From an uncultured Alphaproteobacteria bacterium (lineage in GTDB: Bacteria > Pseudomonadota > Alphaproteobacteria > Thalassobaculales > Thalassobaculaceae), in assembly GCA_902578675.1 (NCBI GenBank), contig CACHDV010000001.1:88065-123479 (forward strand): a stretch of DNA of 35,415 bases, written 5' to 3'. Made by a program: the position numbers and the translations under genes. Of this stretch, positions 26,018-28,237 are shown in pieces. Every line of letters starts with the position of its first letter. Position 1 is the first letter of the stretch. The notes under the pieces were generated by a model. It worked only from the letters and a program-made list of their open reading frames with translations, did no database searches and was not told where the DNA came from.

Positions 26018-26120
26018 GCAATTTTTTGGGCAGTCAGATTATGAAGGCAAAGATTAACCAAAAGCCACGTCTTAACAAACTGTCCACTCGTGCGTTATAA
26101 TAATGTAGGAGGTCTTGTCA

Positions 26121-26489
26121 ATGGGGAAAAGTGTTAAAACTGGAAAGTTTCCGTGGAGTATAAAAGGTGTGTCTGTTGAAGCCAGAGATTTTGTAAGGAC
26201 AGCTGCTGCTGAACGAGGCATCACCATGGGCGAGTGGTTAACAAATGTGATTCAGAACGAAACAAAAGCGTTTGAGTCAACTGGTGATAGCCAACAAAAA
26301 ACTAATGATGTTTTTAAAACACCTCAAATGGTAACAGAGGTTCCTAAACGCGCTGAAGACAGTTTGCTGAAAAAGCTAGATGAGACGGAGGGTCGTGTTT
26401 TAGAGGCAGTGAAGCCACTGAGAGAGATCTTATTGAAACTGTCCTTAAGATTAGAAGCTTTGGAAAGTCGCCACGAGGTAGAACGCTGA
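26121..26489 (+). CDS. Small protein with PodJ-like N-terminal (RHH-like) domain
   Basis: FPWSIKGVSVEARDFVRTAAAERGITMGEWLTNVIQNE resembles the N-terminus of the downstream ORF. AGGAGG lies 8 nt before ATG 26121. Confidence 0.75.
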   Translation: MGKSVKTGKFPWSIKGVSVEARDFVRTAAAERGITMGEWLTNVIQNETKAFESTGDSQQKTNDVFKTPQMVTEVPKRAEDSLLKKLDETEGRVLEAVKPLREILLKLSLRLEALESRHEVER

Positions 26490-26630: not shown

Positions 26631-27683
26631 ATGAACCAGGCATTAACTCCATGGAGCGTCAAGGGTATCGACGAAGAAACCCGAAAGACCGCGCGACAGA
26701 AAGCAAAAGAAGCAGGACTTTCCATAGGAACTTGGATCGACCAAATTATTTTGGAGCAGCAGGCGCAGGTTTCGCGTAAAGATAGCAATTTACTAAATTC
26801 AGAAGAGAAAAATACTTATGAATCAAAAGAGTTTACCACCCAAAAAGATGTTGATGTTCAAAGCCTCTCAAAGGCTTTAGAAGAATATGATAGCCGTCTC
26901 GAAAAAGAATTACGTCCTATAATTTTTGGACTTAATGAACTAGCGTTGCGACTGGTTGCGGCTGAGGCATTAAAATCAAAACCGAGAACGTCATACCAGG
27001 ATCAGGCCCCAATCGAAGATATTAGAGAAGAGTTTGTAAATGAAGAAATAGCCAATGACGATGACATAAATAAGGAAAGCTATATCGTTGACGAGCGGCC
27101 AGCTCCTGTTCCCCCCACCTTTGATCTTGAGCAAACCGAAGAAGAACTTTTCTCTGATCTTGAGGAATTTGATTCTTCTGAAGAAGACTCCACACTAGAC
27201 AAAGAAAAATTAGTTGAGCCAAATGCAACGACGAATCAGGAAATAATTAAAAGAAAGCCGCTCAATAAGTGGTTGTTAATTTTACCATTGCTGGTTTTCT
27301 TGGGTGGTGTGGTAACTGTTACAGCATTCATTTTCCCGACACATTATAAGACCTTCTTTTATAAATATAGCGGTGCGATGCTCGTGAATATGAACTCTAT
27401 CTTAAAGACGGTTGAAGATGCGTATGATGAAGTTGACCATCTAGTTACAAAAACAATCCTTAAGTTCATAGGGTTAAAAGATGACCCAAAAGTGTCTTCC
27501 GAAGCTATTGAGAGTGATAGTGAATCAAGCAAAGGAGTATTCCCTGCGGGCACTGAGGCTGCCCAAATAAGACAATCTAATGAATACTTGAATAATAGAA
27601 CTACTCAAAAACCAATTCACAACTCAAAAGTAGCTAGCACTTACCCAGAATCAGAAAAAAAAAAGAAAGTGAACCTAATTTAA
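26631..27683 (+). CDS. PodJ-like membrane protein, N-terminal part (RHH-like domain, acidic linker, one TM helix)
   Basis: LTPWSVKGIDEETRKTARQKAKEAGLSIGTWIDQIILEQ; acidic middle; TM KWLLILPLLVFLGGVVTVTAFIFP; ends just after the A10 tract (ESEKKKKVNLI). Confidence 0.8.
   Translation: MNQALTPWSVKGIDEETRKTARQKAKEAGLSIGTWIDQIILEQQAQVSRKDSNLLNSEEKNTYESKEFTTQKDVDVQSLSKALEEYDSRLEKELRPIIFGLNELALRLVAAEALKSKPRTSYQDQAPIEDIREEFVNEEIANDDDINKESYIVDERPAPVPPTFDLEQTEEELFSDLEEFDSSEEDSTLDKEKLVEPNATTNQEIIKRKPLNKWLLILPLLVFLGGVVTVTAFIFPTHYKTFFYKYSGAMLVNMNSILKTVEDAYDEVDHLVTKTILKFIGLKDDPKVSSEAIESDSESSKGVFPAGTEAAQIRQSNEYLNNRTTQKPIHNSKVASTYPESEKKKKVNLI
27655..27664 (+). other. A10 homopolymer with in-phase slippery heptamer A_AAA_AAG (27659-27665)
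   Basis: In the upstream ORF frame the codons are AAA (27660-62) and AAG (27663-65), preceded by A at 27659. A -1 shift enters the frame of the Sel1 ORF. Confidence 0.75.
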
Positions 27684-27742
27684 TTTCCAAGCAAAAGACC
27701 TTTAGCTCACACGGAGGTCATCTTGAAATAGGCAAACAACGG

Positions 27743-28237
27743 TTGTCCTCAGAAAAAAATCTTAAAGACGCGGACCTGCTGGAGAATGCAAATAAAGGAG
27801 ATCCGAAAGCTCAATACCATTTAGGACTAATGGCTCTAGCTTCTCCAAAAAAGAAAGATATTAACAGAGCATTAAATTGGTTTAATTTAGCAGCCATTCA
27901 AGCATTTCCGCCCGCACAATACAGCATGGGCGTTCTCTACGATAAAGGGTTAGGCGTCACAGAAAATAAGTCGACGGCTTTGCTTTGGTACTATGCGGCA
28001 GCGCAAAATAACTATGCCAAAGCGCAGTACAATCTTGGGGTTTTTTTTCTTAAAGGTATCGGTACTTCAGTGAACTTAGAAGAAGCCAATTTATGGTTTT
28101 CAAAAGCAGCGCAGCAAGGCATTAAACCGGCTGCTAAAATTCTAGCAACACCATCTCGATCTAACGACAACGGATTGAAACGTTTTAATCACGTAAAGCC
28201 TATTGAAGCGCTAGGATTCTTAGAAAATGAAAAATAA
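27743..28237 (+). CDS. Sel1-repeat (TPR-like) protein; probably the C-terminal part of the preceding PodJ-like protein
   Basis: Three Sel1-like repeats: PKAQYHLGLMAL...DINRALNWFNLAAIQAFPPAQYSMGVLYDKGLGVTENKSTALLWYYAAAQNNYAKAQYNLGVFFLKGIG. The frame is open upstream to 27638. Confidence 0.82.
   Translation: MSSEKNLKDADLLENANKGDPKAQYHLGLMALASPKKKDINRALNWFNLAAIQAFPPAQYSMGVLYDKGLGVTENKSTALLWYYAAAQNNYAKAQYNLGVFFLKGIGTSVNLEEANLWFSKAAQQGIKPAAKILATPSRSNDNGLKRFNHVKPIEALGFLENEK

Follow-up and report, generated by a model that had tools for sequence, protein, structure and literature searches.

A PodJ-like gene split at a conserved poly-A tract in two low-GC genera: a candidate site of transcriptional slippage

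The window analysed here, a 35,415-nucleotide stretch of DNA from an uncultured alphaproteobacterium, contains a PodJ-like gene whose two halves lie in different reading frames. The frame changes inside a run of ten adenines, and the locus raises the question of whether the split reflects an error, a decayed gene, two separate genes or a single gene that encodes two proteins. The window genome (G000) is a draft of 1.67 Mb in 109 contigs, and the window alone is therefore unable to exclude an error; relatives have to decide. The comparison set comprised 36 genomes of the family, several of them incomplete; no other family of the order was represented.

Architecture of the locus

The features of the gene are collected in Table 1. 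At the tract, the 0-frame codons are TCA GAA AAA AAA AAG AAA GTG AAC CTA ATT TAA, so that the short form ends in VNLI, while the long form would carry the junction peptide YPESEKKKESEPNLISK. The transmembrane (TM) segment and the Sel1 repeats stand in one chain only when the two frames are joined. All coordinates given in a preliminary description of this DNA for the A10 tract, the 0-frame stop beyond it and the -1-frame Sel1 part were found to be correct, and the codons GAA AAA AAA AAG bear out its statement that A_AAA_AAG is phased for a -1 shift. The same description called the N-terminal domain RHH-like. In Pfam, this part gave only a NikA-like match with an E-value of 0.017, below the cut-off; what it does contain is the PWSVKGID-type motif of Caulobacter PodJ, matching a PodJ-type ORF of C. 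vibrioides in tblastn (40% over 45 aa). Homologues of the 0-frame ORF are present in G001, G002, G033 and G027, and a partial one in G030.

Table 1. Features of the split gene in the window (window coordinates)
Feature	Position	Strand	Remarks
PodJ-like gene, full extent	26631-28237		
0-frame ORF, short form, 350 aa	26631..27683	+	N-motif, acidic linker, TM, periplasmic stub, slippery tract
N-terminal motif PWSVKGIDEETRKTARQKAKEAGLSIGTWI	26649..26738	+	common to alphaproteobacterial PodJ
Single transmembrane segment WLLILPLLVFLGGVVTVTAFIF	27270..27335	+	hydropathy 2.55 over 19 aa
-1-frame open stretch; from the tract onward, C-terminal part of the long form	27638..28237	+	
A10 slippery tract	27655..27664	+	
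A_AAA_AAG heptamer, phase fits -1 ribosomal frameshifting	27659..27665	+	heptamer kept in 3/3 g1 species
0-frame TAA stop, end of short form	27681..27683	+	16 nt after A10
Three Sel1 repeats, -1 frame	27788..28120	+	Pfam PF08238, E 6e-24

The gene order at the locus is methyltransferase, small N-motif ORF, PodJ-like gene, ispE, TPR protein and ETF-QO, and it is retained wholly or partly across the family. The small ORF (window 26115-26489) contains a diverged PWSIKG copy of the N-motif without Sel1 repeats, and such an ORF adjoins the podJ-like gene throughout the family.

Conservation of the split and selection on the -1 frame

Six species from two sister genera carry the split gene, namely G000, G001 and G002 (genus g1) and G027, G030 and G033 (genus g8). 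In all six, the Sel1 part is read in the -1 frame, and the change of frame falls inside an A-run, which is A9 in G033, A10 in G000, G001 and G030, A11 in G027 and A12 in G002. A run of at least nine A between the TM segment and the Sel1 repeats occurs in 7/7 low-GC relatives with a readable junction (the window species counted), and the two parts stand in the -1 relation in six of these seven. The remaining species, G011, which is basal in g8, has an unsplit 628-aa ORF with an in-frame A9 at codon 358, between TM and Sel1, so that not every low-GC relative is short by default. Slippage at this in-frame A9 would truncate the product, a mirror of the arrangement in the window gene. Elsewhere in the family, most genera have the N- and C-terminal parts in one ORF at syntenic loci. 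This also holds for most of the high-GC genera (60-78% GC), whose uninterrupted podJ-like genes lack A runs of eight or longer. The interrupted genes of G034 and G025 were considered as the same feature and rejected, as they have 68-77% GC and no homopolymer; the G034 piece contains 100 N, and both interruptions are either draft errors or real frameshifts.

The preliminary description had named two mundane alternatives, a one-A assembly error and an inactivating indel. In their favour, the genome is only 62% complete. Both are contradicted by the same -1 split in six species, among them the single-cell genome G027, and by the dN/dS of the -1-frame Sel1 part, which is 0.09-0.33 in 6/6 comparisons and indicates purifying selection beyond the tract. 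Judged from these comparisons, the split is neither a one-base error nor a fresh inactivation, readings to which we give a negligible chance. The further scenario of that description, in which relatives would all have an uninterrupted frame and no tract, proved false: an A9-A12 tract and a split frame are present in six species.

Homopolymers easily gain and lose bases. The -1 relation has nevertheless outlasted both a G/A substitution through which the tracts of G000 and G002 came to differ in length with no indel, and compensating indels that flank the tract (G033 versus G027/G030), and the dS between G000 and G001 is 1.5-2.3, near saturation. An out-of-frame phase held over so long a divergence argues that the split is kept. 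This bears on a neutral reading, in which an indel was fixed by drift, slippage happens to rescue the product and the short form has no role. The linker is AT-rich and Lys-rich, the 0-frame tails past the tract are not conserved between species, and many A-tract cases are known without evidence of function (PMC1088944), all as such a reading would have it. Under neutrality, however, restoration of the frame should be frequent, yet the split in g1 lasted across near-saturated synonymous divergence; by this argument, which is not a test, neutral rescue is improbable. The distance from tract to Sel1, taken from the translations, is about 45 codons in g1, 10 in g8 and 25 in G011. As it varies by lineage, the sites may have arisen repeatedly or moved via linker indels, and as the six split species fall into two groups, they count as two or three events of independent evidence.

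Could the Sel1 protein be a separate gene, translated alone through reinitiation or from its own start? Candidate starts exist: TTG 27743 in G000 is matched in place by GTG in G002, and in G027 a TTG lies a few nucleotides past the stop. However, G001 has no such start before the first Sel1 repeat, nor do G030 and G033 near the stop, and no ATG, GTG or TTG with an SD in the -1 frame ahead of Sel1 is conserved across the split species, which makes independent initiation unlikely. The preliminary description was accurate in this respect as well: the TTG AAA TAG that comes after GGAGG (27713-27717) is in another frame, and TTG 27743 lacks an SD. Further, a Sel1 protein made alone would have no TM segment with which to reach the periplasm. 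In the 26 codons from the tract to TTG 27743, where the -1 frame is translatable only via a frame change, the differences between G000 and G002 number 8, 1 and 9 at the first, second and third codon positions of the -1 frame, with P 0.007 for so low a count at position 2. This is a small sample, and the amino-acid identity in the stretch is not above simulation, 25% of simulations reaching the same value. The codon-position bias upstream of TTG 27743 speaks against a separate gene, which thus has only a very slight probability.

How the two frames may be joined

Taken together, one PodJ-like gene probably yields two proteins through RNA polymerase slippage on the A-tract, which would constitute a conserved recoding site. 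When the A10 is read normally, translation would stop 16 nt on, giving a 350-aa inner-membrane protein with a cytoplasmic N-domain, the TM segment and a short periplasmic stub. When RNA polymerase slips on the tract, some transcripts would gain one A (or lose two), which would join the frames into a 535-aa product extended by the periplasmic Sel1 domain; in g8, the long form would add a peptidoglycan-binding domain as well. The tract would set the ratio, with the long form minor and the short form major. The preliminary description had suggested slippage or frameshifting at this site; comparison supports recoding of the split gene, and we infer slippage or frameshifting itself from the sequence pattern.

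Slippage, if it occurs as we suppose, is likely to be mostly transcriptional rather than ribosomal. The polymerase is favoured over the ribosome because the tracts have at least nine A, no downstream structure stands out and dnaX offers a parallel (see below). One published set of criteria for programmed transcriptional slippage (PMC1088944) asks for at least nine consecutive A or T where two ORFs overlap, with a fused product that exceeds the default one in length; the A9-A12 runs of the six species are of this kind. The main rival is programmed -1 ribosomal frameshifting by tandem tRNA slippage, to which we give a small but real chance. An in-phase slippery heptamer of the type X_XXY_YYZ is present throughout, A_AAA_AAG in 3/3 g1 species and A_AAA_AAA or A_AAA_AAC in g8. 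Given stimulators, A_AAA_AAG is among the most efficient motifs in E. coli (PMC4066793), and an SD-like GAGG lies about 17-20 nt before the tract end in g8 only. On the other hand, the tracts run to 9-12 A although 6 A plus G would be enough, G030 has A_AAA_AAC, and g1 is without an upstream SD. No RNA structure stood out downstream (z -1.25 to +0.9), and with a best z of -1.25 a structural stimulator was provisionally rejected. The variable codons after the dnaX tracts likewise suit polymerase slippage.

In a further alternative, phase variation, tract length would change in the DNA itself, the long form being on or off in each cell and the assemblies representing a consensus. Contingency loci made of homopolymers do exist, among them the poly-A tracts of phase-variable O-antigen genes (PMC3441752), and G011 could be taken as an 'on' state. 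Random phases would scatter, however, whereas 6/7 low-GC species share the -1 phase; were the species independent, the probability that all six fall in a particular phase would be about 0.0014, but they are related. Phase variation is accordingly given little credence.

The A-runs of the genome bear on polymerase slippage from both sides. In a G000 sample of 407 kb (41.7% GC, 335 genes called), the genes contained only 11 runs of at least nine A, so that the presence of such a run at the junction in 7/7 low-GC relatives exceeds chance. A/T runs up to 8 in these genes are above the codon-shuffled expectation, while those of at least 9 number 15 against 20.6 expected and those of at least 10 number 1 against 5.2, counts that hold for this sample only; the shortage of runs of at least 9 is a weak sign of a slipping polymerase. 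Against the slippage reading, A runs arise readily in Lys-rich linkers of AT-rich genes. An A10 alone was rejected as evidence of programming, as several A10 runs of G000, G002 and G027 are in frame within intact genes or intergenic. A QueG-like gene, identified by eye, has an in-frame A10 in G000 (C12:15001-15010) and in G002 (C103:1952-1961). An ORF overlap at an A10 run was also seen in G002 (L178).

Comparison with known systems

Assignment to the PodJ family, as proposed in the preliminary description, stands with a caveat. As in Caulobacter PodJ, the PWSVKGID motif, a cytoplasmic part, a TM segment and, if the frames are joined, periplasmic Sel1 repeats are present, and the short form would retain the TM and drop the periplasmic domain. 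Caulobacter PodJ, however, is encoded by a single ORF and has roughly 650 aa of coiled-coil cytoplasmic sequence; this long coiled-coil region is absent from the window gene, in which about 213 aa precede the TM. The C-terminal PG_binding_1 domain known from Caulobacter was detected by Pfam in g8 (E 1e-9); the window species gave no match, and genus g1 lacks the domain. By its sequence, the window protein is thus best described as PodJ-like, with a much shorter cytoplasmic part. The origin of the short form would also differ. PerP presumably belongs to the clan AA aspartic proteases of TIGR02281. This protease group was not found in 11 genomes of the bacterial family (several incomplete, fused-gene genera included) and was present in the Caulobacter control. 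In Caulobacter, PerP cleavage removes the periplasmic domain of PodJ to give the short form (PMC10790692; PMC10148035), whereas a frame change is proposed here. By analogy, the short and long forms may act like PodJS and PodJL at the pole and envelope. If so, a two-form polarity protein would be possible without a dedicated protease, and the gene is well suited to testing what a membrane scaffold gains from a form that lacks its periplasmic domain.

A second gene of the same clade, dnaX, shows a similar pattern. In six low-GC species of both genera (G001, G003, G011, G020, G027 and G033), an in-frame A10 or A11 lies in dnaX (codons 392-409), and each of the two alternative frames meets a stop within 4-11 codons. 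No such run was found in dnaX of eight high-GC relatives; the incomplete genomes G000, G002 and G004 yielded no dnaX, and the G030 match was weak, below dnaX-like strength. The codons after the tracts differ among species (GTC, ATT, GCT, GTT), which fits polymerase slippage. In Thermus thermophilus, dnaX undergoes transcriptional slippage at an A9, while E. coli dnaX uses frameshifting. As in Thermus, a run of at least nine A would yield two length forms, and dnaX of this clade has the Thermus-type slippage layout for gamma/tau; Thermus dnaX is long by default and is truncated by slippage, whereas the window gene is short by default. Caulobacter DnaX is processed by ClpXP (PMC7566177), and a further source states that gamma arises there by proteolysis of tau (PMC5009743). 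We put forward, as a tentative idea that may well prove wrong, that the low-GC marine lineage moved both PodJL/PodJS (PerP) and DnaX tau/gamma (ClpXP) from Caulobacter-style proteolysis to slippage at A9-A12 tracts. If this is true, RNA polymerase stuttering sets the isoform ratios of polarity protein and replisome.

The literature searched contained no earlier report of a PodJ-like/Sel1 gene split by slippage or frameshift, and PodJ and Sel1 are not mentioned in the accessible portions of the GeneTack survey and the recoding review. Gene callers would list such a gene as two entries, a truncated protein and an orphan Sel1 protein or pseudogene. Conserved slippage genes that are chromosomal and non-mobile are few, namely dnaX and tssM, and a survey of 108 genomes gave one non-mobile candidate (PMC1088944). 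Shigella mxiE/spa13 and IS-element sites also have two overlapping ORFs from which slippage yields a longer product (PMC1088944; PMC5009743), but these are mobile or plasmid genes, whereas the window gene is chromosomal with conserved synteny.

The nearest precedent is tssM1 of Citrobacter rodentium, in which slippage at an A11 gives truncated and full-length forms that are both required (PMC4256274). As proposed for the window gene, tssM1 encodes an inner-membrane protein with the tract just ahead of a premature stop, and the long form gains a periplasmic C-terminal domain. It differs in being a type VI secretion gene with experimentally proven slippage, the window gene being known by sequence comparison. 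The default form is short in tssM1 and long in tssM3 of Yersinia pseudotuberculosis (PMC4256274), which parallels the two arrangements seen in G000 and G011.
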